From contig NC_092329.1 of the NCBI RefSeq assembly GCF_036785885.1, forward strand, positions 16,324,449-16,388,448: DNA of 64,000 nt, written 5' to 3'. The notes below the pieces were generated by a model, which was not told the origin of the DNA, searched no databases, and was given only the letters and a program-made list of their open reading frames with translations. The position numbers were made by a program, and so were the translations under genes. Source of the stretch: Coffea arabica (taxonomy: Eukaryota; Streptophyta; Magnoliopsida; Gentianales; Rubiaceae). Of this stretch, positions 17,266-44,640 are shown in pieces; the first letter of the stretch is position 1, and every line of letters begins with the position of its first letter.

Positions 17266-18130
17266 CATCCCACTAATCTTGTACATATCTTGGATAAAAT
17301 AACCTCAAATATAACTTAGTTGCACATATTTTGAATAAAATTTTAGTTATATCCCTTTTCAAGAGAACACCTAAATACGTAAACGAAAGATTTTGGTGTC
17401 CAAATCCTAACAAATTTTGGATCATATGGACCTTGACCAAGGACACCTTCATAGAGTAAATAAATGACCTTTCGTTCATATTAACCTTCTGCCCCAAAAA
17501 GGACTCATATTGAAGAATAAATTGACAAGTGTCCCTCAATCGTCTTTTAGAATAAGTAGTAAATATAATCATGTCATCTACAAGAGCCAAGTAGGAAATT
17601 TTTTCACCAGCAGAATTATAAAATAACTGCTGATTTCTACTATCAAATAAATCATATAAGCCTATTTCAAGAAACTATATAGCAATGATAAACAGGACTA
17701 GAGAAAGGGGGTCACCTTGAGAAATGGCAAACACCATGGAAGGACTTAGGGATCCTTACTGCCTCTCCAGTAATTGCAACGAAAGACTAATTGCTAGATA
17801 GGATTCTAAACACCAAATAAAAAAAATCTCATTAAATCGAAATCATTATAATCACAAGAGACTTGGGGCAAATAAAAATGTAAAGCAGAACAATGAATAA
17901 AATCTCTATCATCAGAAAATAATCTACTAAAAAAATTAACCACAGATTGTTTAATATCATCCATCAGAGAAAACTATACTCAGAGTCCTTAATTCTAGCT
18001 ATAAAACTAGAGCTCCTCTTTTTATGATGACGTGGCGTAGATATTCAAGTAAATGAACTAGTTCTCATCTACTGTAAGTATATAGGTTCTTATTTGAGTA
18101 AAAGGTAAATTAGGGTTGTTAAATTACTAA

Positions 18131-19560
18131 GGGAGAATTGTAATTTTGGTCCCCAATCTATAGTGTATGCATGGAATTATCCCCAATCTATTTTAAAAAT
18201 CAATTTTGATCCCCCAATCTATTCAATTTTGCGCTAAAGTACAATTGACGGAATCTCTTCAATTTCAATCGGAACTAAGTCACGTGAGATCACGTGTCAG
18301 CACCTAAAACCCCTTTTTCAATTTTTTATTTCTAAAACACGTTTTTTCTGGTAGCTTGACTTTTGGCGTGGACACTCCTGTCCCTTCAACCAAATCAATT
18401 TCCTCCTCGTCAATTCTTTTCCAATCAAAACTCTGAATTAGAGATCTCAAGGCCAAACCCACCACCCGCTGTGCTAGGCCAGAATCAGGGCAAGATCTCC
18501 TTCCCTTCCTAAATGGAATCAGCTTTGATGGCTGAACCTGCAAGCCTTCGAATCTCTCTGGCTTGAAGCTTGTTGGATCATCCCATACGTTTGGGTCCCT
18601 GTGAACTGCCCATGCATTAACTAGCAAAATTGTGCCTTCGCGGAATATTGTATCCCCCAATTTTATAGTCATCGGACGACTCATGTGGCACTAGCATTGG
18701 TGCTGCTGGTACAACTGAAGTGTTTCTAAAATAATGTTATAAAGATAAGGAAGATTGGATAGATCATGTTCGTCGACCAATCGATCAGTCCCTACTTGAG
18801 CATCCAATTCAGCTCGAGCTTTCTCTAGCACCTCGGGATGGTTGAGCAAAAGAGACAAGGCCCATTCTATAGTCACCGATAAAGTGTTTGTTCCAACCGT
18901 AAGCATGACCTACCAATTTTAATTGAATGCTCATTCCAGTTCAACGGTGAAGAATGGCTAATAGGAAAAGAATATACTTACCAGTGTAATCCCTTTGATG
19001 ATTTGGTCCGTATAATCCCATTGATTTCCAATTATTATCATCTACTCTTCTCTCTCAGTTGCTTGCTTGCTTGCTTATGAAGTAGTACTGCTGCTGCTCC
19101 TATTGTTTGTGCAGGAGAGTTGAATTGGGTTCGTCTCTAGCGTTGATTGCAGATTATCTCCATTGCTAATGGAGGCAAGAACGAGACTTGGACTTGGAGG
19201 CCAAGCTGAGCTTCTTACTCGTGCTGTGGGTTTTGGGGATTTGAAGACAGCGGCCAACAAGAGGAGTAATTTGGATTGTGAGATTACCCTTTGCATGTCT
19301 TTGTTTAATAAGACAAAAGGCAAGAGAAAGCTGAAAATATTAAAAAACGTGTTTTAGAAATTAAAATTTTGAAAAAGAGGTTTTAGGTGCCGACACGTGA
19401 TCTCACGTGACTTAGTTCCTATTGAAACTAAAGAGATTCCGTCAATTGTCCACTTTAGCGCAAAATTGAATAGATTGGGGACCAAAATTGATTTTTGAAA
19501 TAGATTGGGGATAATTTCGCACATACACTATAGATTGGGGACCAAAATTACAATTCTCCC
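18131..19560. mobile_element. Pack-MULE with captured P450 fragment, left copy
   Basis: Long terminal inverted repeats of roughly 200 bp are seen: gggagaattgtaattttggt at 18131 against its complement ending at 19560. A perfect 9-bp target duplication, AATTACTAA (18122-18130 and 19561-19569), is the Mutator signature. Between the repeats lie host gene pieces: a P450 fragment on the minus strand, and at about 19100-19330 a second non-TE-like stretch (plus-strand MEARTRLGLGGQAELLTRAV) whose parent gene I do not recognise. No transposase is present. Confidence 0.85.
18304..19017 (-). pseudogene. cytochrome P450 (CYP81-like) fragment in Pack-MULE
   Basis: The end of an upstream exon (YTDQIIKGITL, about 19017-18982) is followed by an intron with a GTAAGT donor. 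A second exon starts at about 18909 with [25 protein letters not shown] block follows ([20 protein letters not shown]), then the heme-binding region [20 protein letters not shown], which retains the cysteine ligand. The closest match from memory is the CYP81 family. The K-helix reads ETLQ rather than E-x-x-R, so a nearly invariant arginine is lost. A stop near 18690 separates the two parts, and the first ~300 residues are absent. This is a captured, non-functional fragment. Confidence 0.85.
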
Positions 19561-19569
19561 AATTACTAA

Positions 19570-20213
19570 AACCAATGGCTTACTTTATTATCGAAACAAA
19601 TATGAATTCGAATGATTAAACTAATTACAACTTATACTAGAAGCAATAAGAAAGTAAATTGCAAAGGATGAAATGATTAGGAGTAGAATCCTAGGGTTTT
19701 TGACTCCCTCATTTGCAATAGATTATGAGTGTATATTAGTTGATTACGCTCGTGACTTATGTCTTGCCAAGAATGTAATTTCCTAAAGTATTTGGACTTC
19801 GCTTCTGCCAATGAAATAAATATACCTACACCTAATCTTCACTTACTTTCATGGGTGAATAACTCGATGCAGGTTTAATAGAGGAGTGAAATCACTTGAG
19901 TTAACCACCTAAATGTATCTTTACTTTTGTAAGTATATACTATTTAAGATTCATGAATTCCTATCTTGTATTGTTAAATAACTTTCATTTCTCAAATAAT
20001 AGATTGAATAGTTTGCAATTAATGATCAAAAAACTATAAAAATAAAATAAGGAATACATGAACTAGCAAGTACATAACAGAGTAATAATCAAGCTACATC
20101 GATCCATAGTCATAACACAAATAAGTTCATCTCAACCTTGCGATACAAATAACTTAGCTACTCACAGTAGATATGAAATGAAAGTACAAGTTATTCTTGC
20201 AACAAATCATGAA
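19570..20213. other. non-coding stretch inside segment A
   Basis: AT-rich DNA between the Pack-MULE and the next MITE. No coding frame was recognised. The same stretch recurs at 38065-38708. Confidence 0.4.
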
Positions 20214-20222
20214 TAAAAACAA

Positions 20223-20657
20223 GGGTAAAAAACAAAAAAAACCCCTGTGGTAAGTCTAATACACAGAAAAGCCTCCTGTGGTTTCAAAATATACAATACG
20301 ACACCTCATACTTTGAATTAAATTGTAAAGGTGACGGAATCCGTTAAACTTAACAGAAATGACTTATTGGAACCTAAAAAAAAATTTATACCTAATTTTT
20401 ATCAAATATACCTATTCTATCCCTTAACCCTCAATTCTCTCTATTTAAAGAATAAAACAAATGATTTTTTTGAGCTGCCTTTTGCTTAATTATATCAGAG
20501 CATTTTAGTCTTTTTGTCCATTTCCGTTAAGTTTAACGGATTCCGTCATCTTTATAATTTAGTTCAAAGCATGAGGGGTCGTGTTATATAATTTGAAACC
20601 ATGGGAGGCTTTTCTGTGTATTAGATTTACGACAGGGGGTTTTTTTATTTTTTACCC
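20223..20657. mobile_element. MULE-type MITE, left copy
   Basis: A 435-bp element with inverted repeats that extend over most of its length (gggtaaaaaacaaaaaaaac against its complement; the aatccgttaaacttaac block pairs internally). It has a perfect 9-bp target duplication, TAAAAACAA, at 20214-20222 and 20658-20666. No coding capacity. Confidence 0.85.
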
Positions 20658-20666
20658 TAAAAACAA

Positions 20667-21149
20667 TTAAATGAAAGATGGAAGGATGAAGAATTTCTTA
20701 TTCTAATAGTGGATAAAAAGCTCCCCAAACTCCTCTTGCAATCTTGTCTTCAAACACAGAAGTTATAAGAATTGTTCACCATTAAGCAACTATAAAATTT
20801 GTGGTCGAAACCAGAACAACAAAAGAGTTAAGGAAATCAAAATTTTTGTTTTGGTAAAAGAGATCATTTTTCCCGTTTTTTCTCTTCGCTGATACTACAG
20901 AACGCTGGCCATGGACCAATGCCCCTATTCTTGTAAAACATAGCATGTAGACAGGAGCTCATGTTCATTTTCCCTTTATATTTTTTCATTGTGGCATTTT
21001 TATAAATAGTTTCAATGTGTAGAATATACCATCTATCCCTAGTTATTTAGCATATAACTTAATCCAATTTTATTCCGTTTTACAACAAATTTAAGAGAAA
21101 AGCATTTCCGATGCAACAACCAGCGAGTTATGGAGGGTAGTTTTGTTTA
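20667..21149. other. non-coding stretch inside segment A
   Basis: AT-rich DNA between two MITEs. No gene or paired repeat was recognised. The same stretch recurs at 39162-39644. Confidence 0.4.
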
Positions 21150-21158
21150 TTTATTTTA

Positions 21159-21849
21159 GGGATAATTTCAGAAACCTCCCTTGAGGTTTTATGAAATATC
21201 ACCTAGCTCTCTTGAACTTTTCAAAATCTCACTTAACACCCTTGAAGTGATAGTAGGGCCATATGCTAATATCAAAGGTGATGAATTGTCAATAATACCC
21301 TCATATTTAAATTTTCTAAACTTGTTTTTCTTTCTCTAAATATCAATGAAATATAGGATTTAATCAATGAAATATTCAGCGCATTTGGAGAAAAATAGCT
21401 GTAGGTTCTTTTTTTTCCCTTTTTTTGTGTTTCACAACTTTATTTATTTATTTATTTGTTCCTATTCATGTAGAGTGCAAGAGAAATAAAGTAACTAAAA
21501 CTCCGAACTGCAGTTTTTCAAATTCTGAGTTTTTTATAATAAAATTTTCATATTTCATGCCCATAAAAAAAGTCCGTCTATTTTGAGTAAATTCTCTGTA
21601 TGATATTGAAGTTGAATTTCATCTATTGCTGAGTTTTTTTGGCTCAAATGCATGATTTTTACATGCTAATTGCCTTCAATGCTATGGAGGGTTTTATTTA
21701 TAGAAATGGTTTAAAAAATATATGCTTTTACTGTCTCTCTCTATTATAGAAATGACTATTGGCTGTAACATAAAATCTTATCAATTTTCATCCCCTCACT
21801 TTTAAGATGGTTCCAATTTAGTACTTTTTTTCCTTGGTTTGTAAAATGT
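21159..21849. mobile_element. MULE-type MITE truncated by the viral junction
   Basis: It starts GGGATAATTTCAGAAACCTC, the left terminal repeat of the complete element at 39654-40547. This copy stops at 21849, where pararetroviral DNA begins, and has no right terminal repeat. It shows that the left host copy is the broken one at this edge. Confidence 0.85.
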
Positions 21850-22082
21850 CCAGGTATTGAAATGTAATAAACATAAGTAGTTGGACTTACTTTTGATTCT
21901 TGAGTGACTAACGGAAGCTTGAAAGGAAATTCAACCTTGAAGACTTTATTGCAATGTTGAAATCTAAAACAAAGACTTTTGAGTACAAGGGTTGTTTAGA
22001 GTGGTTGTAAGTGATAAGAAAACTAAGACAAGTCTATGAGTACTTCTGATATTTTTCGCGATGCCTCTCTTCTGGAATTGTC

Positions 22083-22091
22083 TGCTATTTA
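22083..22091 (-). promoter_or_regulatory. pararetroviral TATA box, copy alpha
   Basis: The minus strand reads TATAAATAG, followed by the same ~220-nt leader as in copy beta. Position between the last frame and the primer site is where caulimovirids place the pregenomic promoter. Whether it is active is unknown. Confidence 0.6.
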
Positions 22092-22219
22092 TAGAGGCTC
22101 TGATCTTCATTTGGTCTTCATTTCATCTGTATTTGAATTTTATTTGCCTTTATTGAGAAGTGGCCGACACCTTTGAGTGATTGATTTCCTTTTTGAAGTG
22201 GCCGTTACTTTTGAATGAC

Positions 22220-23484
22220 TCAGAAGTCATTTGGGTCTTGTCCGCATGGTCTCCCGAAATGATCAAAAGTTGATTCGGATGACTCTGCTGATTCATCAAT
22301 TTTGGCTGTGTCTTCTTTTTTCTCTTGCTTTTGCAAATAGTCCAAATATTCCTTGAGTAGTCTTGGGTCTTGTAGCATCTTTTTCATTAAAAAGTCATTT
22401 GAATTTGCCTCGGATGCCATCTCCATCTCTTTTTCTTTTTCTTTCTTTATTGGAGTAGTATTTGGAGTTGGTGCCAGAATGATTGGTGTTGATGGAGAAT
22501 TTGTAGTGGATTTTGAAGTAGTGGGTAACTGTCTTGTCCATTTGAGCTTATCTCCAGTAGTCAGGAATCTGATAACATTTACTTGATCTGCAAATTCTTG
22601 GTTGAATCCTGTCCACCATTTAATTTTGAATTCTCTCACCAATGACATTGGGAGTGGTTTTTCTAACTCTTGATGTATCTTGAAACTCCAGCAAAATATC
22701 CATGGAACTTTGAACTCCATATGAAATACAATTGGTCTTGTGTATTCTTCCCCCTTTGCTCTTTTTAGATAGGTTTGAAATCCCATAAGCACATTTGGAG
22801 GTAATATGTCTGATTGTGGTCCAAACCATTTCCACCAGTGATTGAACCAAATTGGAAATTCTCGATTGCAATTTTCTTTGAATGTGAAGAACCAAGAGTG
22901 ATTGAATGGTCTAAAAAGGAAAGCACGATACCATGCCATTTGTAGTCTTGGTATGTGAATCCATCTGGAATAAAATTTACTGAGAAGGATTTTTTGGAAT
23001 AAAGAGAAGTCCATTCATTAGGAGAACAAACTTTCTTTATTATACATTTTGAGTGACTTATAATGTTTGGATTCTTTTTATCTGGAATAGGGAATATTTC
23101 TACAGATTGAGTATCTGTAAGAATTAATTCATAATAATCTAGATTTTTGGAAGGTTCATCTGGTTGCCAATAACATTTTGGAGGAAAGATTCTTTGAACA
23201 GTTTGGTTGAGAGTAGAGTATAAAGGTGTTTCTTGAAATCTGGTCAGGGTAATATGTTGAGTGAATGGTTTTGTGAAATAAATATTTTCTGTGGCTTTTT
23301 CTGGAGATTTTGGAGTTTGTTGAATAAATCTTATTGGAGGAAAAGTTGGAGTGCTAGCAGTTTGACTATATGTCAAAGCTGGAAAGTTTTGAAGTATTTG
23401 GAATCTATTTTGGTTTACAGGGGTTAGACTCATCTCATAATCTTGAGGAGTCTTGGGTCTGGAATTACCTGCTTTTGAATCCAT
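22220..23484 (-). pseudogene. viral ORF D, unknown function, frameshifted (alpha)
   Basis: This last viral frame starts MDSKAGNSRPKTPQDYEMSL, 12 bases after ORF C. It runs open to about 22940 and then continues in another frame to a stop at 22220, so one indel lies near 22925-22945. The middle has an aromatic-rich block (FRPFNHSWFFTF, IWFNHWWKWFGP). The C-terminal third is rich in S/T/P, then K/E, and ends DHFGRPCGQDPNDF. In position it matches the last frame of other caulimovirids, which is often a translation transactivator or aphid/inclusion protein, but I see no motif that decides the function. The copy in gamma is truncated. Confidence 0.7.
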
Positions 23485-23496
23485 AATCCTGCAAAA

Positions 23497-23862
23497 TTAA
23501 CAAATAATTCTGTTAAGGGTTTCTTTAAGCTGTCGAATTCGGTTTATAATGGGCTGAATATCTTCTGGAGGATGATTGGCTTTTTCTAGGACATTTTTGA
23601 AAATAATATTTGAATTAATCTGCCTTTTTAGAAGAAAGGCTTGTTCTTTGGGAGTGGTTGCAGCCCAGAAACTATGTCTGATATGAACTGTATCATGGTT
23701 TCGAATTTGAGAATAAGGAATAGGTTGAATAGTTTTGTCGGGATTTTTTATATAATAGGTAAATGGTCTATGGGAAATATTTATATCTCTTTTTTGAAGA
23801 ATGGGGTTATCTCTTTCATTTCGTAATCTTCGAACGTATTCTTTGTGAGTTTCACGTTCCAT
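23497..23862 (-). CDS. viral ORF C, small basic protein of unknown function (alpha)
   Basis: 121 codons, intact in both alpha and gamma. It starts MERETHKEYVRRLRNERDNP four bases after the RNase H stop and ends 12 bases before ORF D. The tight spacing suggests translation from a polycistronic RNA. The composition is basic, with helical-looking ends. I do not recognise a domain. Preservation in two copies of an otherwise decayed virus may just reflect its short length. Confidence 0.6.
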   Translation of the reverse strand: MERETHKEYVRRLRNERDNPILQKRDINISHRPFTYYIKNPDKTIQPIPYSQIRNHDTVHIRHSFWAATTPKEQAFLLKRQINSNIIFKNVLEKANHPPEDIQPIINRIRQLKETLNRIIC

Positions 23863-23866
23863 TTCC

Positions 23867-26104
23867 CTATAGAAATTCTCTTGTCAAGAAGTCAGGAAGA
23901 GAATTATTCTCTCCTTTGATGAATTCTATATCAAAATCAAAAACTGAAAGAATTGCTTGCCATCTAGCAAATATTTGTTTTGAAACTATATTTTGAACAT
24001 CTTTTTGTAAAATTTCTTTTGCTGATTTGCAGTCTATTCTAATCAAAATTTTTTTATAATATAAATCATCTTGGAATTTTGATATGCATAAAACTATGGA
24101 TAAAATTTCTTTTTTAATAGTTGAATAATTCTTTTGAGGATCAGACCATGTTCCTGAATGAAATCTAACTAATTCTTCTTTTGAATTATCTACCTTTTGT
24201 TTTAATATACCTCCATATCCTAATTCTGATGCGTCTGTTTCAACTATCATGAATGCTTTAGGATGAGGTAAACATGGACATGGTAATGATTCAATTTTTT
24301 CTTTTAAATATTTTATTTTTTGAGTATGTTCCTCTGTCCAAGGTTTTGGATTTTTCTTTAATCTATTAAATAATATAGAACATTCTTGTCTTAATTTAGG
24401 AAAGAAATCTGCTATATAATTTAGACATCCTAAAAATCTTTGTAATTGATTTTTATCTTTTATTTCATCTGGAAATTTAGTAGCAAATTCTAAAACTCTA
24501 TTAATTGGTTTTATTGTTCCTTGATATATATTATGTCCTAAAAATCTTATTTTAGTTTGAAATAATTTCATTTTTGGAGCAGAAACAACTAATCCATTTT
24601 TCTTAACTACTTTTAAAAATATACTTAAATGTTTGAAATGTTGTTCTATTGATTCTGAAAATATTAATACATCATCTATGTATACTATACTGAATGAACT
24701 ATAAGGATTGAAAATATCATTCATTATATTTTGAAATTCTGATGGTGCATTTTTTAATCCAAATGGCATAACTTTCCATTCATAATGTCCAAAAGGTGTT
24801 GTAAAGGCTGTTTTATATCTATCTTTTGGATCTATTATTATTTGCCAATATCCGGATTTCATATCAAACTTTGAAAATATCTTAGCATTGAATAATCTAT
24901 TAAGCAAATCCTTTTTATTAGGAATAGGATATCTAATCCATTGTAAAACTTTATTTAAAGGTTTATAATTTATTACTAATCTTGGAACTCCTCTTTCTTT
25001 TTCAGCTTGATTCATTACATAGAATGCCGCACAGCTCCAAGGTGATTTTGAGGGTGTTATTAATCCTTTATCTATTAGTATTTTTATTTCCTTCTTACAA
25101 AATTCTAATAACTCGGAATTCATTTGTATTGGTCTAGCTTTTGTTGGAATGTTTTTTTCATTAAAATCTTTTTCATAAGGTAATTCTATCATATGTTGTT
25201 TTCTATCCCAAAAAGCATTAGGAATATCTGCACAAATTTCTTTTTGAAATAATTCTTCTAGTTCTAATATTCTTTTTTGTATTTTAATATCATTTAATTG
25301 TTCTTCAATTTTTAAATAAGATTTTTCCTCTTTAATATAGCTTATTTGCTGTTGTACTCTAGTAATAGTATTTATTGTTTTATATATTGAAGATGTTTGC
25401 AATGTTTGTAATTCCCTTTGTCTTATTGGAGTTAAGAATTTAAAGGTAATAATTTTTCCCATTATATTTACTGAAATTCCTTCATTACTTACTAAAAATG
25501 GATATATTTGAATTAAAAAGGGTGTTCCTAATATTACATCATGGTTTATATTATTTACAATTATAAAATTATGTTTGATACAATATTCATTATTACATAT
25601 TGATCCTTTTGTAAATTTATATTTTACTTTTAAATTTTCTCCATTTGCTGCCATTAGTTTTTCATTTGTTCTTTCACAATATTTAGTGGGGATGATTCCT
25701 TCTTTAATACAACTTATATCAGCTCCACTATCTATTAGAGCTACAAATGTTTCTTTGAAATCTTCTACTGTAATAGTTACTAAAGCAAACCATTTTTGAA
25801 ATATCATTCTTTCTATAGTATTTAAATATTGATCTTCTTTTATTGGTTTTTCTGAGATTATTATTTCTTCTGTTTTTGAATTAGAGGTTGAGGGCTGATT
25901 GTTATCTATTAATGTTATTTTTGATTCTATTTCTAAATCTTTTAATTTTAATTCTATTATTTCTTGTTGTAATTGTTTTACTTGTATTTTAAGATTATTA
26001 ATTTCTGATTGAAGGTCTTTAGTAGTTTCTTTTTTCATTATATTTATATTTGGATATTTATCTATTAATTTCGAAATGCTAAAAGGTTCTATTATCTTTG
26101 GCAT
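23867..26104 (-). CDS. viral protease / reverse transcriptase / RNase H (alpha)
   Basis: A 745-codon open frame from the internal ATG MPKIIEP. The order is a coiled-coil-like segment (residues ~20-65), an aspartic protease with LIDSGADISC (~125), a reverse transcriptase with the active site YIDDVLIFS (~410) and FGLKNAPSEFQ upstream, then RNase H with VETDASELGYGG (~615). It ends PDFLTREFL without an integrase. In gamma this region is in frame with the coat protein, so the natural product is probably one polyprotein. In alpha a frameshift near 26160 separates the two. This is the longest intact viral frame in the window. I infer it is not expressed as a virus, since alpha lacks the upstream half. 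Confidence 0.9.
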   Translation of the reverse strand: MPKIIEPFSISKLIDKYPNINIMKKETTKDLQSEINNLKIQVKQLQQEIIELKLKDLEIESKITLIDNNQPSTSNSKTEEIIISEKPIKEDQYLNTIERMIFQKWFALVTITVEDFKETFVALIDSGADISCIKEGIIPTKYCERTNEKLMAANGENLKVKYKFTKGSICNNEYCIKHNFIIVNNINHDVILGTPFLIQIYPFLVSNEGISVNIMGKIITFKFLTPIRQRELQTLQTSSIYKTINTITRVQQQISYIKEEKSYLKIEEQLNDIKIQKRILELEELFQKEICADIPNAFWDRKQHMIELPYEKDFNEKNIPTKARPIQMNSELLEFCKKEIKILIDKGLITPSKSPWSCAAFYVMNQAEKERGVPRLVINYKPLNKVLQWIRYPIPNKKDLLNRLFNAKIFSKFDMKSGYWQIIIDPKDRYKTAFTTPFGHYEWKVMPFGLKNAPSEFQNIMNDIFNPYSSFSIVYIDDVLIFSESIEQHFKHLSIFLKVVKKNGLVVSAPKMKLFQTKIRFLGHNIYQGTIKPINRVLEFATKFPDEIKDKNQLQRFLGCLNYIADFFPKLRQECSILFNRLKKNPKPWTEEHTQKIKYLKEKIESLPCPCLPHPKAFMIVETDASELGYGGILKQKVDNSKEELVRFHSGTWSDPQKNYSTIKKEILSIVLCISKFQDDLYYKKILIRIDCKSAKEILQKDVQNIVSKQIFARWQAILSVFDFDIEFIKGENNSLPDFLTREFL

Positions 26105-26157
26105 TTTATCTTCTTGAATAATTAAACTTTTTAGTCTTTCTAAATATTCTTTTTTAG

Positions 26158-26436
26158 CTATGGGATCTTCAATTTTTCTATAATATCTAATAAGAATTCT
26201 TTATCTTCTTTTTTAGTTATTACATTAATATATTTTGGAATACAATTACAATTTTCTTCACTATCTGAACTAGAAATATCATTGTAATAATCATCTTCTG
26301 TACTTTGTTCTTTTTCATTTATTAATAAATTTATTAATTTATTTTTAATTTCTTCTTCATTTGAACAAATTTCTGTAATTTTTTCTTTTAATCTACATTT
26401 GTTTGCTTTATGTCCTATCTTTCCACATTTATTACA
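26158..26436 (-). pseudogene. viral coat protein C-terminal fragment with zinc knuckle (alpha)
   Basis: On the minus strand the frame carries CNKCGKIGHKANKC, a CX2CX4HX4C zinc knuckle, then a basic/acidic tail (EENCNCIPKYINVI) and a stop after a frameshift near 26170. The residues before the knuckle come from the inverted join with copy beta and are not coat protein. Confidence 0.8.
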
Positions 26437-26457
26437 TTTCAATACCTGGGTAAGAAG

Positions 26458-26469
26458 TGGTATCAGAGC
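26458..26469 (+). promoter_or_regulatory. tRNA-iMet primer-binding site, copy beta
   Basis: TGGTATCAGAGC is the 12-base complement to the 3' end of plant initiator tRNA-Met, the minus-strand primer of caulimovirids. By convention it is genome position 1. It lies ~250 bases before the first viral ATG. Confidence 0.85.
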
Positions 26470-26712
26470 CACACCCCTGTTTAAAGTGCATACGCATATT
26501 TAAACTTTGCATTTACATTTACTTTATTTGAATTATATTTCTATTTTGACTTGGCTATTTCATGCATTTATGTTACATATTTTATTAAACTTTTACTGAA
26601 AACGTTGGTAAGACTTGATGCCTTGTTAGACCGTTGGCAAGTCCAGGATAGGATGTTCCAGGCATAGTGCTCGGTTGTTCTCGTCGAGGTAAAAATTTAA
26701 TTAAATATTAAA

Positions 26713-28609: not shown

Positions 28610-28612
28610 AAA

Positions 28613-29650: not shown

Positions 29651-29704
29651 GCAAATAAAATTCAAATACAGATGAAATGAAGACCAAATGAAGATCAGAG
29701 CCTC

Positions 29705-29713
29705 TATAAATAG
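29705..29713 (+). promoter_or_regulatory. pararetroviral TATA box, copy beta
   Basis: TATAAATAG lies about 250 bases before the next primer site. A possible polyadenylation signal, AATAAAG, is at 29848-29854. This promoter would read into copy gamma. No sign of activity can be judged from sequence. Confidence 0.6.
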
Positions 29714-29956
29714 CAGACAATTCCAGAAGAGAGGCATCGCGAAAAATATCAAAAGTACTCATAGACTTGTCTTAGTTTTCTTATCACTTCCAACCACTCT
29801 AAACAACCCTTGTACTCAAAAGTCTTTGTTTTAGATTTCAACATTGCAATAAAGTCTTCAAGGTTGAATTTCCTTTCAAGCTTCCGTTAGTCACTCAATA
29901 ATCAAAAGTAAGTCCAACTACTTATGTTTATTACATTTCAATACCTGGGTTAGAAG

Positions 29957-29968
29957 TGGTATCAGAGG
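29957..29968 (+). promoter_or_regulatory. tRNA-iMet primer-binding site, copy gamma
   Basis: TGGTATCAGAGG, with 11 of 12 bases as in beta; the last base is G instead of C. Confidence 0.8.
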
Positions 29969-30212
29969 CACACCCCTGTTTAAAGTGCATACGCATATTT
30001 AAACTTTGCATTTACATTTACTTTATTTGAATTATATTTCTATTTTGACTTGGCTATTTCATGCATTTATGTTACATATTTTATTAAACTTTTACTGAAA
30101 ACGTTGGTAAGACTTGATGCCTTGTTAGACCGTTGGTAAGTCCAGGATAGGATGTTCCAGGCATAGTGCTCGGTTGTTCCCGTCTAGGTAAAAATTTAAT
30201 TAAATATTAAAC

Positions 30213-32095
30213 ATGGCTGCATTTCTTAGACAATTAAAAATAGGATCTAATTCAAAGCAAGAAAATGTAGTACAAAGTCATGAATATCATATGCCTATAA
30301 ATAATTCAGATTGGACTATTCCAGAAGAAAAAATAGAACACATTTATAGAATTGGCCCTTTAGATTTTAAAACAGCTTTATCAGTTAAAACTCATGAAGA
30401 AATAATATCTATTCAAGAAGAATATCAGACTATTCAATTACTAAATCATAATACAATTCAAAAATATTTAAGCAAAGGATATAGATACATTCATATAGGT
30501 TTAATATAAATTGCTGTAAAACCTTTATTCCATTTAGGAGTAGATGCTCCAATATACCTAACTTTAAGAGATACTAGACTCAAACGGTATAAAACTTCGT
30601 TACTCTCAATGATTCAAACTAATGTTTGTAATGGACCAATATACTTTAACTGTGCTCCAAATTTTTCAATAGATTTAACAGATCCCCATATTCTGAATTC
30701 TGTTATATTAGATATTCATATGCAAGGAAATGAATTTGAAAAACATACAAAGAATTTTGCAATAATATACAGAATATATTATAGACCTCTATCTTCACAT
30801 TTAAATCCAAAATTTATAATGACTCCAACTCTTAAGGAAGAAACAACTTTATTACAAGTAGATGCAGATAAACCTACAACATATACACCAAAAAGATTAA
30901 AATGGAACGAAATAACTATACTAAGTGAATTTGAAATTAAAAATCCACAAATAGCCAGAAATATAGAACAAACCACTGCAGAAGATATAATAGAAAAGGC
31001 AGATGGTAGTACACTTACAAGATTCACCTCATTAAGAGAAAGACCAGAATCCTCTTATTCATGGTTACCAGTTAGACGTTCAAATTATGAGTCAACTGAA
31101 GTTAATTTTCCTATGGAAAGTACTTCAAATTTTAAATATAAAACACCAATACCAAAAGTTATAAATAAATCAGAGTATTCCCCAACTCATTCACAAATGC
31201 AAGGAGAAATAAATGTTATAAATAAACCATATAAGATAAATCATAAATATTTATAAGAAGATTTTGAAGATGATGAAAATACAGAGAAAAGAATTTGATT
31301 TTTTCAATTAGAATCAAAGTATAAAGAAAAATTAATTCTAGAATGGAAAAGTGAATTAGAAAAACAAAAGTTTGATTTTCCTTTCTTTACATGGTTAACA
31401 TTTTATATGTCAAAATTAGGAATGAATGATATATATAATACACCTCAAATAAATGTTCAAACCAATTTATATAAAAAATGGAAATTAAAAGATGAACAAG
31501 TTATAACTTCAATACACCCTCCATTACAGGAAATAAAAATTAATATGGGACAAGGAGAAATTATAGCCTCACATTTTAAAAAGGGACGAGAAGCTGAATC
31601 AAGTACAAATAATTCAATAAATCTAGAAGATCTTAAAAAAGTTTATCAACAAAATAATTATACAAATCAAATTCTTCATACAATTTCTCAACATATGGAA
31701 GTTTTAAATACTAAAATTGATACAATAAAGAAATCAGATTTAAAATTCCCAAATGATATTTCAGCCCCTCATTTTCAACCAAGAAGCCTGACAAGAGAAA
31801 AAGAGCAAGACTTAGTACAAAATATTAATAGTCAAAAAATAAATACTACAGATAATTTATTAAATAAAATATCTAATGCATTACAAAATCTAACTACAGA
31901 TTCTAAACCTTCAACTCCAAAAATAAACACATTAGACCAAATAATAGAAGAAAATTCTACTGAAGAATTAGAAGATTTATCAGAAGAATCAATAAAATCA
32001 GAAGAAGAAGAAGATATGATTTTACCCATAGAAACTAATTTGATGAAACAAAAGGAAATCAAATAAATAGAATAAAAAAGAAAAAATTATAATAA
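30213..32095 (+). pseudogene. viral ORF A, movement protein (gamma), interrupted
   Basis: It starts MAAFLRQLKIGSNSKQENVV, without the early stop of beta. It is broken by stops at about 30507, 31254 and 31297, and by compensating one-base indels near 32033 and 32078. The movement-protein core is the same as in beta. The C-terminal coiled-coil/acidic part is open from 31407 to 32066. In this copy the terminal codon of beta (TGA) is TGG, so the reading frame is not closed before the coat-protein ATG. Confidence 0.8.
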
Positions 32096-32111
32096 CAAAA
32101 ATAATTGGAAA

Positions 32112-35100
32112 ATGGTAAGTTCAAAAAATTATTATCCTAGACCAAGTCCTCCAGATATTCAATATGAAGAAATATCAAAATTTAGAACTACTAAATATGA
32201 TGGAGATTCAATATATGAATGGAATATAGATGGCAAAGCAGAATATGAAGTATTAAATAATTTGCAAGAAATAGGAATGGCTAGACTAGCTTATAAGATT
32301 AAAAATATTCAAGAAAGAAATATTGCAACATTATTAGTCTCAAGATTTACTGGACAATTAAAAAATTGGTGGGATAATGCCTTAACATTACAAGACAAAT
32401 TATCAATATTAGATCATACACAAGAAATAGAAGATGATCAAGGAAATATTCAAATACAGTCAGATGCTGCAGAATTTCTAATTGTAACAATAGTCATGTA
32501 TTTTATAGGAAATCCAAAAGAAGAATTAAATTCTAATAAAACGTTTTTAACAAATCTAAAATGTCCAACATTATCAGATTTTAGATGGTATAAAGATATG
32601 TTTTTAACAAATGTATTAAGAAGACCAGATTGTAATGCTTCATTCTGGAAAGAAAGATTCATAACCGGATTACCAAGTTTATTTTCACAAAGAATAATGG
32701 ATAATTTACAAAAAGAAATGGGAACAGATGTCATTTCATTCGAAAATATTACTTTCGGACAATTATTTGCTTTTGTGAAAAAAGAAGGATTAATGTTATG
32801 TTCAGAATTAAGATTACAAATAAAATATGGATCAAAAACAAAAGAAGTAAGATCATTCTGTGATGCATTTGGAATTAAAAGAATTAAGTCACCATCAGCA
32901 TACAAAAAGAAAGTTAAAAAATATTCTAAGAAAATAAGATATAAAAACCCAAAGGAAAATGAACCAACTAAAAAGAAAAAATTTATTAAGAAAAAAATTG
33001 TTTGTTATAAATGTGGAAAGATAGGACATAAAGCAAACAAATGTAGATTAAAAGAAAAAATTACAGAAATTTGTTCAAACGAAGAAGAAATTAAAAATAA
33101 ATTAATAAATTTATTAATAAATGAAAAAGAACAGAGTACAGAAGATGATTATTACAATGATATTTCTAGTTCAGATAGTGAAGAAAATTGTAATTGTATT
33201 CCAAAATATATTAATGTAATAACTAAAAAAGAAGATAAAGAATTCTTATTAGATATTATAGAAAAAATTGAAGATCCCATAGCTAAAAAAGAATATTTAG
33301 AAAGACTAAAAAGTTTAATTATTCAAGAAGATAAAATGCCAAAGATAATAGAACCTATTAGCATTTTGAAATTAATAGATAAATATCCAAATATAAATAT
33401 AATGAAAAAAGAAACTACTAAAGACCTTCAATCAGAAATTAATAATCTTAAAATACAAGTAAAACAATTACAACAAGAAATAATAGAATTAAAATTAAAA
33501 GATTTAGAAATAGAATAAAAAATAACATTAATAGATAACAATCAGCCCTCAACCTCTAATTCAAAAACAGAAGAAATAATAATCTTAGAAAAACCAATAA
33601 AAGAAGATCAATATTTCAATACTATAGAAAGAATGATATTTCAAAAATGGTTTGCTTTAGTAACTATTACAGTAGAAGATTTCAAAGAAACATTTGTAAC
33701 TCTAATAGATAGTGGAGCTGATATAAGTTGTATTAAAGAAGGAATCATCCCCACTAAATATTGTGAAAGAACAAATGAAAAACTAATGGCAGCAAATGGA
33801 GAAGATTTAAAAGTAAAATATAAATTTACAAAAGGATCAATATGTAATAATGAATATTGTATCAAACATAATTTTATAATTGTAAATAATATAAACCATG
33901 ATGTAATATTAGGAACACCCTTTTTAATTCAAATATATCCATTTTTAGTAAGTAATGAAGGAATTTCAGTAAATATAATGAGAAAAATTATTACCTTTAA
34001 ATTCTTAACTCCAATAAGACAAAGGGAATTACAAACATTGCAAACATCTTCAATATATAAAACAATAAATACTATTACTAGAGTACAACAGCAAATAAGC
34101 TATATTAAAGAGGAAAAATCTTATTTAAAAATTGAAAAACAATTAAATGATATTAAAATACAAAAAAGAATATTAGAACTAGAAGAATTATTTCAAAAAA
34201 AAATTTGTGTAGATATTCCTAATACTTTTTGGGATAGAAAACAACATATGATAGAATTACCTTATGAAAAAGATTTTAATGAAAAAAACATTCCAACAAA
34301 AGCTAGACCAATACAAATGAATTCTGAGTTATTAGAATTTTGTAAGAAGGAAATAAAAATACTAATAGATAAAGGATTAATAACACCCTCAAAATCACCT
34401 TGGAGTTGTGCGGCATTCTATGTAATGAATCAAGCTGAAAAAGAAAGAGGAGTTCCAAGATTAGTAATAAATTATAAACCTTTAAATAAAGTATTGCAAT
34501 GGATCAGATATCCTATTCCTAATAAAAAGAATTTACTCAATAGATTATTTAATGCCAAGATATTTTCAAAGTTTGATATGAAATCCGGATATTGGCAAAT
34601 AATAATAAATCCAAAAGATAGATATAAAACAGCATTTACAACACCTTTTGGACATTATGAATGGAAAGTTATGCCATTTGGATTAAAAAATGCACCATCA
34701 GAATTTCAAAATATAATGAATGATATTTTCAATCCTTATAGTTCATTCAGTATATTATACATAGATGATGTATTAATATTTTCAGAATCAATAGAACAAC
34801 ATTTCAAACATTTAAGTATATTTTTAAAAGTAGTTAAGAAAAATGGATTAGTTGTTTCTGCTCCAAAAATGAAATTATTTCAAACTAAAATAAGATTTTT
34901 AGGACATAATATATATCAAGGAACAATAAAACCAATTAATAGAGCTTTAGAATTTGCTACTAAATTTTCAGATGAAATAAAAGATAAAAATCAATTACAA
35001 AGATTTTTAGGATGTCTAAATTATATAGCAGATTTCTTTTCTAAATTAAGACAAGAATGTTCTATATTATTTAATAGATTAAAGAAAAATCCAAAACCTT

Positions 35101-35573
35101 GGACAGAGGAACATACTCAAAAAATAAAATATTTAAAAGAAAAAATTGAATCATTACCATGTCTATGTTTACCTCATCCTAAAGCATTCATGATAGTTGA
35201 AACAGACGCATCAGAATTAGGATATGGAGGTATATTAAAACAAAAGGTAGATAATTCAAAAGAAGAATTAGTTAGATTTCATTCAGGAACATGGTCTGAT
35301 CCTCAAAAGAATTATTCAACTATTAAAAAAGAAATTTTATCCATAGTTTTATGCATATCAAAATTCCAAGATGATTTATATAATAAAAAATTTTTGATTA
35401 GAATAGACTGCAAATCAGCAAAAGAAATTTTACAAAAAGATGTTCAAAATATAGTTTCAAAACAAATATTTGCTAGATGGCAAGCAATTCTTTCAGTTTT
35501 CGGTTTTGATATAGAATTCATCAAAGGAGAGAATAATTCTCTTCCTGACTTCTTGACAAGAGAATTTCTATAG
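32112..35573 (+). pseudogene. viral ORF B, coat protein-protease-RT-RNase H (gamma), one stop
   Basis: One frame of about 1150 codons, interrupted by a single TAA at about 33516-33518. From the N-terminus: capsid core (FTGQLKNWWDNAL, ~residue 85), a basic stretch, zinc knuckle CYKCGKIGHKANKC (~300), acidic segment, coiled coil (~430-470), the stop, then protease LIDSGADISC, RT YIDDVLIFS, and RNase H VETDASELGYGG. Ends PDFLTREFL. The part after the stop is open for 646 codons. The layout is that of a caulimovirid polyprotein with separate movement protein. I do not assign a genus; florendovirus- or petuvirus-like relatives are possible. Confidence 0.9.
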
Positions 35574-35577
35574 GGAA

Positions 35578-35943
35578 ATGGAACGTGAAACTCACAAAGA
35601 ATACGTTCGAAGATTACGAAATGAAAGAGATAACCCCATTCTTCAAAAAAGAGATATAAATATTTCCCATAGACCATTTACCTATTATATCAAAAATCCC
35701 GACAAAACTATTCAACCTATTCTTTATTCTCAAATTCGAAACCATGATACAGTTCATATCAGACATAGTTTCTGGGCTGCAACCACTCCCAAAGAACAAG
35801 CCTTTCTTCTAAAAAGGCAGATTAATTCAAATATTATTTTCAAAAATGTCCTAGAAAAAGCCAATCATCCTCCAGAAGATATTCAGCCCATTATAAACCG
35901 AATTCGACAGCTTAAAGAAACCCTTAACAGAATTATTTGTTAA
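35578..35943 (+). CDS. viral ORF C, small basic protein (gamma)
   Basis: 121 codons, nearly identical to the alpha copy (one visible change, PIPYSQIRN to PILYSQIRN). It starts four bases after the stop of ORF B. Function is not recognised. Confidence 0.6.
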   Translation: MERETHKEYVRRLRNERDNPILQKRDINISHRPFTYYIKNPDKTIQPILYSQIRNHDTVHIRHSFWAATTPKEQAFLLKRQINSNIIFKNVLEKANHPPEDIQPIINRIRQLKETLNRIIC

Positions 35944-35955
35944 TTTTGCAGGATT

Positions 35956-36393
35956 ATGGATTCAAAAGCAGGTAATTCCAGGCCCAAGACTCCTCAAGAT
36001 TATGAGATGAGTCTAACCCCTGTAAACCAAAATAGATTCCAAATACTTCAAGACTTTCCAGCTTTGACATATAGTCAAGCTGCTAGCACTCCAACTTTTC
36101 CTCCAATAAGATTTATTCAACAAACTCCAAAATCTCCAGAAAAAACCACAGAAAATATTTATTTCACAAAACCATTCACTCAACATATTACCCTGACCAG
36201 ATTTCAAGGAACACCTTTATACTCTACTCTCAACCAAACTGTTCAAAGAATCTTTCCTCTAAAATGTTATTGGCAACCAGATGAACCTTCCAAAAATCTA
36301 GATTATTATGAATTAATTCTTACAGATACTCAATCTGTAGAAATATTCCCTATTTCAGATAAAAAGAATCCAAACATTATAAGTCACTCAAGA
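35956..36393 (+). pseudogene. viral ORF D, truncated (gamma)
   Basis: The first ~145 codons match the alpha copy. The frame is then joined to the genome-end sequence and to host DNA, which adds about 40 unrelated codons before a stop at 36522. The aromatic-rich middle and the C-terminus are missing. Confidence 0.8.
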
Positions 36394-36625
36394 ATCAAAA
36401 GTAAGTCCAACTACTTATGTTTATTACATTTCAATACCTGGGTTAGAAGTATCATCCATCGGAGAAAACTATACTCAGAGTCCTTAATTCTAGCTATAAA
36501 ACTAGAGCTCCTCTTTTTATGATGACGTGGCGTAGATATTCAAGTAAATGAACTAGTTCTCATCTACTGTAAGTATATAGGTTCTTATTTGAGTAAAAGG
36601 TAAATTAGGGTTGTTAAATTACTAA

Positions 36626-38055
36626 GGGAGAATTGTAATTTTGGTCCCCAATCTATAGTGTATGCATGGAATTATCCCCAATCTATTTTAAAAATCAATT
36701 TTGATCCCCCAATCTATTCAATTTTGCGCTAAAGTACAATTGACGGAATCTCTTCAATTTCAATCGGAACTAAGTCACGTGAGATCACGTGTCAGCACCT
36801 AAAACCCCTTTTTCAATTTTTTATTTCTAAAACACGTTTTTTCTGGTAGCTTGACTTTTGGCGTGGACACTCCTGTCCCTTCAACCAAATCAATTTCCTC
36901 CTCGTCAATTCTTTTCCAATCAAAACTCTGAATTAGAGATCTCAAGGCCAAACCCACCACCCGCTGTGCTAGGCCAGAATCAGGGCAAGATCTCCTTCCC
37001 TTCCTAAATGGAATCAGCTTTGATGGCTGAACCTGCAAGCCTTCGAATCTCTCTGGCTTGAAGCTTGTTGGATCATCCCATACGTTTGGGTCCCTGTGAA
37101 CTGCCCATGCATTAACTAGCAAAATTGTGCCTTCGCGGAATATTGTATCCCCCAATTTTATAGTCATCGGACGACTCATGTGGCACTAGCATTGGTGCTG
37201 CTGGTACAACTGAAGTGTTTCTAAAATAATGTTATAAAGATAAGGAAGATTGGATAGATCATGTTCGTCGACCAATCGATCAGTCCCTACTTGAGCATCC
37301 AATTCAGCTCGAGCTTTCTCTAGCACCTCGGGATGGTTGAGCAAAAGAGACAAGGCCCATTCTATAGTCACCGATAAAGTGTTTGTTCCAACCGTAAGCA
37401 TGACCTACCAATTTTAATTGAATGCTCATTCCAGTTCAACGGTGAAGAATGGCTAATAGGAAAAGAATATACTTACCAGTGTAATCCCTTTGATGATTTG
37501 GTCCGTATAATCCCATTGATTTCCAATTATTATCATCTACTCTTCTCTCTCAGTTGCTTGCTTGCTTGCTTATGAAGTAGTACTGCTGCTGCTCCTATTG
37601 TTTGTGCAGGAGAGTTGAATTGGGTTCGTCTCTAGCGTTGATTGCAGATTATCTCCATTGCTAATGGAGGCAAGAACGAGACTTGGACTTGGAGGCCAAG
37701 CTGAGCTTCTTACTCGTGCTGTGGGTTTTGGGGATTTGAAGACAGCGGCCAACAAGAGGAGTAATTTGGATTGTGAGATTACCCTTTGCATGTCTTTGTT
37801 TAATAAGACAAAAGGCAAGAGAAAGCTGAAAATATTAAAAAACGTGTTTTAGAAATTAAAATTTTGAAAAAGAGGTTTTAGGTGCCGACACGTGATCTCA
37901 CGTGACTTAGTTCCTATTGAAACTAAAGAGATTCCGTCAATTGTCCACTTTAGCGCAAAATTGAATAGATTGGGGACCAAAATTGATTTTTGAAATATAT
38001 TGGGGATAATTTCGCACATACACTATAGATTGGGGACCAAAATTACAATTCTCCC
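36626..38055. mobile_element. Pack-MULE with captured P450 fragment, right copy
   Basis: Same 1430-bp element as at 18131-19560, with its 9-bp target duplication AATTACTAA at 36617-36625 and 38056-38064. It was copied as part of segment A, not by transposition, because the flanks are identical too. Confidence 0.85.
36799..37512 (-). pseudogene. cytochrome P450 (CYP81-like) fragment, right copy
   Basis: Duplicate of the fragment at 18304-19017, with the same lost ExxR arginine, the same internal stop and the same missing N-terminal half. No repair or new damage was seen by eye. Confidence 0.85.
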
Positions 38056-38064
38056 AATTACTAA

Positions 38065-38708
38065 AACCAATGGCTTACTTTATTATCGAAACAAATATGA
38101 ATTCGAATGATTAAACTAATTACAACTTATACTAGAAGCAATAAGAAAGTAAATTGCAAAGGATGAAATGATTAGGAGTAGAATCCTAGGGTTTTTGACT
38201 CCCTCATTTGCAATAGATTATGAGTGTATATTAGTTGATTACGCTCGTGACTTATGTCTTGCCAAGAATGTAATTTCCTAAAGTATTTGGACTTCGCTTC
38301 TGCCAATGAAATAAATATACCTACACCTAATCTTCACTTACTTTCATGGGTGAATAACTCGATGCAGGTTTAATAGAGGAGTGAAATCACTTGAGTTAAC
38401 CACCTAAATGTATCTTTACTTTTGTAAGTATATACTATTTAAGATTCATGAATTCCTATCTTGTATTGTTAAATAACTTTCATTTCTCAAATAATAGATT
38501 GAATAGTTTGCAATTAATGATCAAAAAACTATAAAAATAAAATAAGGAATACATGAACTAGCAAGTACATAACAGAGTAATAATCAAGCTACATCGATCC
38601 ATAGTCATAACACAAATAAGTTCATCTCAACCTTGCGATACAAATAACTTAGCTACTCACAGTAGATATGAAATGAAAGTACAAGTTATTCTTGCAACAA
38701 ATCATGAA
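38065..38708. other. non-coding stretch inside segment A, right copy
   Basis: Duplicate of 19570-20213. Nothing recognised. Confidence 0.4.
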
Positions 38709-38717
38709 TAAAAACAA

Positions 38718-39152
38718 GGGTAAAAAACAAAAAAAACCCCTGTGGTAAGTCTAATACACAGAAAAGCCTCCTGTGGTTTCAAAATATACAATACGACACC
38801 TCATACTTTGAATTAAATTGTAAAGGTGACGGAATCCGTTAAACTTAACAGAAATGACTTATTGGAACCTAAAAAAAAATTTATACCTAATTTTTATCAA
38901 ATATACCTATTCTATCCCTTAACCCTCAATTCTCTCTATTTAAAGAATAAAACAAATGATTTTTTTGAGCTGCCTTTTGCTTAATTATATCAGAGCATTT
39001 TAGTCTTTTTGTCCATTTCCGTTAAGTTTAACGGATTCCGTCATCTTTATAATTTAGTTCAAAGCATGAGGGGTCGTGTTATATAATTTGAAACCATGGG
39101 AGGCTTTTCTGTGTATTAGATTTACGACAGGGGGTTTTTTTATTTTTTACCC
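38718..39152. mobile_element. MULE-type MITE, right copy
   Basis: Duplicate of the 435-bp element at 20223-20657, including its TAAAAACAA target duplication. Confidence 0.85.
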
Positions 39153-39161
39153 TAAAAACAA

Positions 39162-39644
39162 TTAAATGAAAGATGGAAGGATGAAGAATTTCTTATTCTA
39201 ATAGTGGATAAAAAGCTCCCCAAACTCCTCTTGCAATCTTGTCTTCAAACACAGAAGTTATAAGAATTGTTCACCATTAAGCAACTATAAAATTTGTGGT
39301 CGAAACCAGAACAACAAAAGAGTTAAGGAAATCAAAATTTTTGTTTTGGTAAAAGAGATCATTTTTCCCGTTTTTTCTCTTCGCTGATACTACAGAACGC
39401 TGGCCATGGACCAATGCCCCTATTCTTGTAAAACATAGCATGTAGACAGGAGCTCATGTTCATTTTCCCTTTATATTTTTTCATTGTGGCATTTTTATAA
39501 ATAGTTTCAATGTGTAGAATATACCATCTATCCCTAGTTATTTAGCATATAACTTAATCCAATTTTATTCCGTTTTACAACAAATTTAAGAGAAAAGCAT
39601 TTCCGATGCAACAACCAGCGAGTTATGGAGGGTAGTTTTGTTTA
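39162..39644. other. non-coding stretch inside segment A, right copy
   Basis: Duplicate of 20667-21149. Nothing recognised. Confidence 0.4.
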
Positions 39645-39653
39645 TTTATTTTA

Positions 39654-40547
39654 GGGATAATTTCAGAAACCTCCCTTGAGGTTTTATGAAATATCACCTA
39701 GCTCTCTTGAACTTTTCAAAATCTCACTTAACACCCTTGAAGTGATAGTAGGGCCATATGCTAATATCAAAGGTGATGAATTGTCAATAATACCCTCATA
39801 TTTAAATTTTCTAAACTTGTTTTTCTTTCTCTAAATATCAATGAAATATAGGATTTAATCAATGAAATATTCAGCGCATTTGGAGAAAAATAGCTGTAGG
39901 TTCTTTTTTTTCCCTTTTTTTGTGTTTCACAACTTTATTTATTTATTTATTTGTTCCTATTCATGTAGAGTGCAAGAGAAATAAAGTAACTAAAACTCCG
40001 AACTGCAGTTTTTCAAATTCTGAGTTTTTTATAATAAAATTTTCATATTTCATGCCCATAAAAAAAGTCCGTCTATTTTGAGTAAATTCTCTGTATGATA
40101 TTGAAGTTGAATTTCATCTATTGCTGAGTTTTTTTGGCTCAAATGCATGATTTTTACATGCTAATTGCCTTCAATGCTATGGAGGGTTTTATTTATAGAA
40201 ATGGTTTAAAAAATATATGCTTTTACTGTCTCTCTCTACTATAGAAATGACTATTGGCTGTAACATAAAATCTTATCAATTTTCATCCCCTCACTTTTAA
40301 GATGGTTCCAATTTAGTACTTTTTTTTCTTGGTTTATAAAATGTTCATTTTTCTATAGCCTAAGGGTAGTAAAGGCACTAAAATAATCTCTCTCCTCAAA
40401 CATGAATTTTTTAATATTACTTTTGGTTAGAAGGGTGACAATGTTACTAAAAAGTCAATTCAAGGGGTGCTAAGTGAGATTTTGAAAACATCAAGGAAGC
40501 TAAGTGATATTTCATGAAACCTCAAGGGAGGTTTCCAAAATTATCCC
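39654..40547. mobile_element. complete MULE-type MITE spanning the edge of segment A
   Basis: 894 bp with terminal inverted repeats (GGGATAATTTCAGAAACCTC against the complement of the end, GGGATAATTTTGGAAACCTC). The target duplication is 9 bp with one mismatch: TTTATTTTA (39645-39653) and TTCATTTTA (40548-40556). The duplicated segment ends inside it, at about 40345. Confidence 0.85.
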
Positions 40548-40556
40548 TTCATTTTA

Positions 40557-41752: not shown

Positions 41753-41756
41753 TTTG

Positions 41757-42712: not shown

Positions 42713-42766
42713 TGTCGCACCCCATTTTTCGCGATGGAAAAATGAAAGGTGTTTATAAAAGATGTG

Positions 42767-44637: not shown

Positions 44638-44640
44638 GTG

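Follow-up and report, generated by a model that had tools for sequence, protein, structure and literature searches.

Kilobase direct duplications of host DNA around endogenous caulimovirid insertions at two loci of Coffea arabica

The entry of integrase-free plant DNA viruses into chromosomes has so far been inferred mainly from junction sequences. The window analysed here, 64,000 nucleotides of the Coffea arabica contig NC_092329.1, contains a block of caulimovirid DNA (V) between two long direct copies of one host segment (A), which raises the question of whether A was doubled by the insertion itself and, if so, by what kind of repair. A long duplication together with a natural empty site would provide a record of a repair event in which host ends overlapped by kilobases.

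Results

Alignment of the two copies of A (Table 1) revealed 5 substitutions and no indel over 3,894 bp, at an offset of 18,495 along the entire segment, and just beyond either end of A the identity between the copies dropped to background. This bears out the near-identical 3.9-kb direct copies at constant offset described in the initial annotation and supplies the count of differences that it had called for. The copy limits given there (17956-21850 and 36451-40345, 3,895 positions with 6 differences) hold except for the last base, because base 21850 is viral; base 36450, a T, could be of viral or host origin. The MITE that was said to be cut at 21849 and complete on the right was recovered as a TIR-like element spanning the boundary between A and the right flank (R).

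Table 1. Features of the duplicated locus in the window
Feature	Position	Strand	Remarks
Left copy of segment A, 3,894 bp	17956..21849	+	Native on left side; homeologous contig C19 continuous over 17955/17956
TIR element within A	18118..19560 (left-copy coordinates)		In both A copies, missing from C19
TIR element within A, about 437 bp	20223..20657 (left-copy coordinates)		In both A copies, missing from C19
Viral block V of 14.6 kb, comprising three partial viral copies	21850..36450		Sequence comparison and domains
Viral copy I, inverted	21850..26436	-	Runs from pre-primer-site end to mid genome
Viral copy II, direct	26428..29947	+	Internal deletion at 29649
SINE-like insertion in copy II	29123..29260	+	B-box-like motif, A-tail, target-site duplication
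Viral copy III, direct	29948..36450	+	Right end at primer-site boundary
tRNA-Met primer-binding-site-like motif	29957..29968	+	Copy II/III junction
Right copy of segment A	36451..40344	+	Native on right side; C19 continuous over 40344/40345
TIR-like element spanning A/R boundary	39653..40548		Whole at right copy; left copy truncated at 21849

Target-site duplications left by integrases or LINEs measure a few to some tens of base pairs, whereas the duplications observed were 3,894 bp in the window and 1,468 bp at a second locus described below. An LTR retrotransposon ends at the outer borders of its LTRs and is flanked by a short target-site duplication; A was considered as such a pair of LTRs and rejected, given that its outer borders either interrupt other elements or are unbroken in the homeologs.

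Separate ORF pieces of V matched the Pfam domains MP, caulimovirus coat, zinc knuckle, RVP, RVT_1 and RNase H, confirming the earlier call of a 14.6-kb pararetrovirus block. The domains by which Caulimoviridae are recognized (MP, coat/zinc knuckle, aspartic protease, RT and RNase H) are all represented in V, as is a motif that we take to be the tRNA-Met primer-binding site. No integrase domain was detected by Pfam on the 9 viral ORF pieces scanned, out of 15 of at least 120 aa in or overlapping the block. The genus Florendovirus is characterized by an ORF1 polyprotein (MP-CP-AP-RT-RH), an ORF2 of unknown function and an RT clade of its own. The domain order of V and a 264-aa ORF lacking a Pfam match fit this genus as a candidate assignment; the RT tree contained no named reference.

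Within V, copies I and II are joined through a common run of about 9 bp, and the break in copy II (32994 in copy III numbering) adjoins that in copy I (33003). Copy III carries a deletion at 36391, bounded by short direct repeats. The insertion in copy II, called SINE-like for its resemblance to tRNA-SINE anatomy, had no Rfam match, and the same site is vacant both in copy III and in the viral copy at the second locus.

The homeologous contig C19 of this allotetraploid contains a single A and no virus. Both outer borders are unbroken there, that between the left flank (L) and A at about 14852118 and that between A and R at about 14854103. This continuity establishes that the left copy of A is native on its left and the right copy on its right, as originally proposed. 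The empty site with one copy of A, which the initial annotation had proposed to seek in related individuals or species, is thus supplied by C19. Comparison of GH3 failed to show which subgenome was which.

A second locus, on contig C10, showed like anatomy, with a different host segment and a different block of viral DNA. Here, 1,468 bp of host DNA (28510498-28511965 and 28517497-28518964, 3 differences) flank a 5.5-kb block of the same virus family as V, which the host copies abut flush or within about 10 nt. The C9 homeolog, judged by coordinates only, is continuous over both borders with one copy (26412459-26414170, 26413784-26415243 and 26414740-26416469). The virus-free single-copy site on C19 and this second locus (n = 2 duplicated loci in this analysis) support the proposal that host segment and virus belong to one event; A's duplication most likely arose during the viral insertion itself.

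These comparisons also bear on two other accounts. Tandem duplication of A beforehand, with the virus later landing precisely at the junction, or else simple insertion and subsequent unequal exchange, would draw on a known kind of duplication (an insertion at C3:47919816 sits in a 2.5-kb tandem array), but is very improbable, requiring an exact hit at two loci where both homeologs have a single copy. That a false duplication was assembled beside the viral repeat is scarcely credible: the outer flanks are continuous at two loci, and the four of the five A differences that can be polarised split two per copy. The published assembly, as far as the available text of PMC11018527 describes it, is based on HiFi reads of about 20-kb fragments from a di-haploid line, a source that makes allelic false duplication unlikely.

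At both loci, the two outer viral ends fall no more than about 60 nt from the tRNA-Met primer site, four ends in all. In the window, the right end is the primer-site boundary and the left end falls 8 nt short; at C10, the right end is 14 nt short and the left about 53 nt short, with about 10 nt of filler. The chance of four random ends all lying within 60 nt of the site is about 4e-9, for a threshold picked after the ends were seen. Homology at the host-virus junctions is 0 and 1 bp in the window, with filler and 0 bp at C10. Capture by DNA repair, as first suggested, fits these junctions; the sequence itself does not discriminate between the two routes offered with it, staggered ends and template switching.

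The arrangement can probably be explained by the joining of linear reverse-transcribed viral DNA between a pair of host ends that overlapped, so that long direct duplications remained. The substrates would be linear double-stranded reverse-transcription products, opened where the minus strand begins and in part linked to each other, and these would be end-joined (NHEJ or polymerase-theta type) between left and right host ends overlapping by 3.9 kb in the window and by 1.5 kb at C10. Such an overlap would require two molecules of one region, such as sister chromatids with breaks at separate positions; alternatively, one end might have been re-copied from the sister after fork collapse. L-A-R would be converted to L-A-V-A-R in a single event, and later gene conversion probably homogenised the middle of both A copies.

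Template switching of the MMBIR/FoSTeS type, in which a broken fork copied viral DNA, re-entered the host 3.9 kb (at C10, 1.5 kb) upstream and recopied A, is the main rival to joining. It would yield the identical L-A-V-A-R in one event and is a natural account of viral pieces that are chimeric and inverted and share about 9 bp where they meet. We nevertheless consider it unlikely: clear microhomology is missing from the host-virus junctions, which have 0-1 bp of homology or filler, and the outer viral ends fit a physical DNA end, not random switch points. The sequence decides for neither.

A distinctly smaller chance attaches to a host-virus hybrid circle (V plus A) that formed first and then entered by one homologous crossover with the resident A, along the lines of looping or hybrid-circle models for HPV. 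The topology would be the same, and HPV "looping" amplifies a flanking host region (PMC8439666, in part), but an additional circle intermediate is required, and among the matches listed just two full-length copies of each segment occur, at its own locus.

Copies I and III represent distinct variants of the virus. In a tree of 30 copies, III grouped with C3:47922887 (support 0.95), and 23 of the 45 differences between I and III over 3,388 bp are states also present in other genomic copies. Private changes over the same length numbered 14 in copy III and 8 in copy I, more than the A-A divergence predicts, which counts against the joining model. In pol, I versus III gave a pN/pS of 0.41, whereas the three pooled ORF pieces of II versus III gave 7 synonymous changes against 28 others, close to neutral. 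With codon counts so mixed and 23 of 45 differences shared elsewhere, viral-copy divergence was rejected as a clock. The notion that V is a copy of a block already rearranged elsewhere was likewise rejected: outside the window, none of the 40 candidates scored, out of 274, matched the 300-bp left viral end at more than 97%.

Dating of the host copies was calibrated by a mean subgenome identity of 94.9% (PMC10805892) and a subgenome split of 4-6 My (PMC11018527), each as stated in the available text. The 5 differences in the window correspond to 101-151 kyr (Poisson limits 33-353) and the 3 at C10 to 160-240 kyr (33-703), whereas an estimate confined to the outer 212 bp of A comes to 1.5-2.2 My (0.4-5.7). 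Four of the five A differences sit within 106 bp of a segment end, which suggests that the middle of A was homogenised. Because the differences crowd at the ends, the A-A divergence of 0.13% is only a minimum age; the claim of a recent event, made from the small number of differences, is weakened, and long flanking copies alone are an unreliable clock.

Long host duplication is not an outcome of every insertion. From C5:43070656 onward, no duplication longer than about 1 kb was found, with 918 bp beside the right end outside view. A 2.2-kb fragment at C10:37781196-37783394, its flanks taken as host for want of a match to V, had no flanking duplication up to 1.17 kb, and a diverged fragment at C19:14845201-14846966 lacked any flush direct repeat of at least 80 bp. 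The insertion in the tandem array (C3:47919816-47928480) has a clean site and is uninformative on duplication; the comparison from C3:50923476 onward stopped before the right side. A first look gave 788 candidates for the RT piece of this family, and the stretch C10:34177972-34188235 bears pre-primer-site ends facing outward at either side.

Discussion

The view that such long flanking duplications had no description was overstated. In the available text of PMC8439666, HPV16 "looping" in human cell clones amplifies the host region between viral junctions, with 3-5 nt of microhomology at one or more ends; it is the closest described analogue. The coffee loci, plant DNA in an assembled genome, resemble it in having virus between repeated copies of a host segment, but there are two copies, and neither the window nor C10 has 3-5 nt of microhomology at any junction, showing 0-1 bp or filler instead.

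Among plant pararetroviruses, no kilobase direct host duplication around an insert was found in the available parts of the literature, including PMC4241990, PMC10377300 and PMC526188. Endogenous florendoviruses and other caulimovirids at double-strand breaks likewise belong to an integrase-free family with multicopy rearranged blocks and a filler-DNA repair model, but no such duplication is described in the portions concerned (PMC4241990, PMC10377300). For grapevine florendovirus copies, flanks with very little redundancy are reported and the available text mentions no long repeats (Geering 2014, PMC4241990), which counts against the joining reading but concerns other loci. In endogenous rice tungro-like elements, host junctions cluster within the intergenic region and where the viral DNA is discontinuous (Kunii 2004, PMC526188), comparable to the primer-site ends in coffee; the available text describes no long flanking host duplication.

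We suggest tentatively, as a reading we hold to be somewhat doubtful, that kilobase target duplication is a recurrent caulimovirid outcome upon capture of a linear product with primer-site ends, and that it marks a distinct integrase-free pathway. Its signature would be primer-site ends on the outside, inverted viral copies and long direct host repeats, and it would be visible here because two homeologous genomes provide empty sites. The choice between overlapping ends and template switching becomes a question that could be answered by surveying the numerous copies within a single allotetraploid genome. Insertions of this kind can leave extra host sequence behind. T-DNA insertions are alike in that a host duplication can accompany foreign linear DNA when plant end joining inserts it, and T-DNA insertions with host duplications were reportedly described by Tax and Vernon in 2001.

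Structure of the duplication and of the viral block

The direct copies of host segment A flanking viral block V differ at 5 of 3,894 positions, and their alignment revealed no indels. Separate ORF pieces within V match caulimovirid movement protein, coat domain, zinc knuckle, aspartic protease, reverse transcriptase (RT), and RNase H; among the 120 protein matches listed for the RT piece (of 822), those named by organism were almost all from flowering plants. V comprises three partial viral copies. In copy III numbering, the break points of copies I and II are 33003 and 32994, respectively, and the two copies are joined over ∼9 common bases. Given these break points, copies I and II look, from their sequences, like two halves of a single molecule, one turned round. 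Copy III has lost sequence between short direct repeats. Copy II carries a SINE-like insertion flanked by a target-site duplication; this insertion is absent from copy III and from the viral copy of a second duplicated locus on contig C10.

Coordinates of duplicated host segments, viral copies, and differences between the A copies (window positions unless prefixed by a contig)
Feature	Position	Orientation
Host segment A, left copy	17956-21849	direct
Host segment A, right copy	36451-40344	direct
Viral block V, flanked by A copies	21850-36450	
Viral copy I	21850-26436	inverted
Viral copy II	26428-29947	direct
Viral copy III	29948-36450	direct
A-copy differences near homology ends	17966, 21744, 21832, 21841	
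C10 host segment, left copy	C10:28510498-28511965	
C10 host segment, right copy	C10:28517497-28518964	

The homeologous site is single-copy and virus-free

The genome searched comprised 1,197,963,845 bp in 131 contigs, with the window on C20; passages of PMC11018527 describe a HiFi C. arabica assembly of a di-haploid line (1,198 Mb, 132 scaffolds). The homeologous region, C19:14836496-14870000, is alignable with much of the window. It is continuous over both outer A borders and contains a single A, and its alignment with the window revealed no virus there. The initial annotation had proposed that the host segment was doubled around the viral insertion and had suggested a search for an empty site with one A; the presence of such a site on C19 supports that order of events. 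Two TIR elements inside A are present in both A copies and absent from C19, and the doubling therefore came after their arrival. A Ty3-type retrotransposon at 41444-52078 (∼310-bp end repeats, 97.4%; capsid, RT, and integrase pieces) also has a clean, empty site on C19, with a 5-bp overlap as in an ordinary target-site duplication.

Divergence of the host copies

Of the five positions at which the A copies differ, four are no more than 106 bp from an end; simulation put the chance of this at 1.5e-5, with a threshold set post hoc. This crowding may mark a gene-conversion tract. When polarised with C19 as outgroup, two differences were derived in the left A and two in the right. Three of these four belong to the native side of the copy that carries them, so that errors at the junctions do not account for them. 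The fifth, at 19503, is inside an element absent from C19. The simplest account is that the middle of the A copies was homogenised. The three differences between the C10 host copies showed no end clustering. In a 1-kb RT piece compared across 30 copies, copy III had 6 private changes, copy I had 2, and the C10 copy had 10, exceeding expectation from host-copy divergence; they may include viral variation predating insertion. Given this excess and the probable homogenisation of A, the divergences of 0.13% (A) and 0.20% (C10) are treated as minimum ages.

A second duplicated locus

At the C10 locus, a 1,468-bp host segment lies on either side of a 5.5-kb viral block, with 3 differences between copies, both flush with the block apart from a left-hand filler of ∼10 nt. 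The left border of the duplication interrupts a Copia-like element (type judged by eye), the ORF of which spans the border; the element is uninterrupted on the homeologous contig C9 and in most other matches listed. C9:26414740-26416469 runs unbroken over the right border, and the segment has one full-length match on C9 (C9:26413784-26415243), with C9 continuity at both borders and the segment match being read from coordinates, not letters.

Viral ends and mechanism

At both loci, the two outer ends of the block are the same viral end in opposite orientations, near what we take, on general biological grounds rather than from a tool label, to be the tRNA-Met primer site. One of the four ends is at the site boundary, and the others fall short of it by 8, 14, and ∼53 nt. 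A fifth such end, at C3:47919816, is at most 3 nt from the primer-site end position; neither the other end of that block nor the left end of a block on C5 is at the primer site. A viral block at C10:34177972-34188235 likewise has pre-primer-site ends outward on both sides. At the host-virus junctions of the two duplicated loci, host and virus share 0 or 1 bp, or ∼10 nt of filler separates them. Passages of PMC526188 report that junctions of endogenous rice tungro-like elements favour discontinuities and cite similar tobacco elements. This preference is thus already known, and what the present loci add is the long duplication of host DNA.

A left host end stopping at the border of A with the host DNA to its right, together with a right host end starting at the border of A with the host DNA to its left, would overlap by all of A, which a single double-strand break in one molecule cannot produce. 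Such an overlap requires either that viral DNA bridged two copies of the region with breaks at separate positions or that one host end was re-copied from its sister. Because the viral ends resemble real DNA ends and the host junctions are without microhomology, we infer joining of overlapping ends as the first-ranked route, with template switching second. Of the published cases consulted, HPV “looping” integration comes nearest, and passages on plant pararetroviruses from PMC10377300, PMC9794742, PMC526188, and PMC4241990 describe no kilobase flanking duplication.

Other insertions and possible viral lineages

The RT piece at 33600-34600 gave 40 scored genome matches (93-100%, of 788 first-look candidates), two being the window's own copies. 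Flanks were fetched, some in part, for four loci outside the window, the duplicated C10 locus among them. C3:47919816-47928480 lies within a 2.5-kb tandem array and is uninformative on duplication, and C3:50923476 onward is a large cluster with its right end beyond the sequence examined. Flank comparison at C5:43070656 onward, with 918 bp outside view, revealed no duplication longer than ∼1 kb. When 28 RT loci of ∼4 kb outside the window were checked for non-viral DNA beyond 600 bp on both sides, one had it, a 2.2-kb fragment (C10:37781196-37783394) at which no flanking repeat was found up to 1.17 kb. A diverged viral fragment at C19:14845201-14846966 has no flush direct repeat of at least 80 bp; the way its flanks match a paralogous stretch suggests a loss of ∼1 kb instead. 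This fragment is 79-88% related and ∼6 kb from the empty site, and the window at about 10969-11503 is without its counterpart. Across seven insertions, duplication was present in two (window included) and absent within the tested ranges in three, with two uninformative or incomplete.

The 300 bp preceding the primer site exist in two versions in the genome, as judged from 40 scored of 274 candidates: version one accounts for 13 of 41 matches (93-100%; contigs 3, 7, 10, 16, and 20) and version two for 27 of the remaining 28 (76-85%; contigs 4, 6, 12, 14, 15, and 22), the exception to the contig split being one 82-bp match on C16. The 40 scored RT hits (of 788) fall on ten contigs, never on both members of a consecutive pair (1/2, 3/4, etc.). 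From these sequence comparisons, the pattern appears to reflect distinct virus lineages in arabica's two progenitors; the only pairs seen here to be homeologous are 9/10 and 19/20.

Elsewhere in the window, 11843-12485 and 42904-44449 are AT-rich and mutually related, with many direct and inverted self-matches (∼70-75%), and pieces of a GH3-family gene occupy 8078-10565 on the minus strand.
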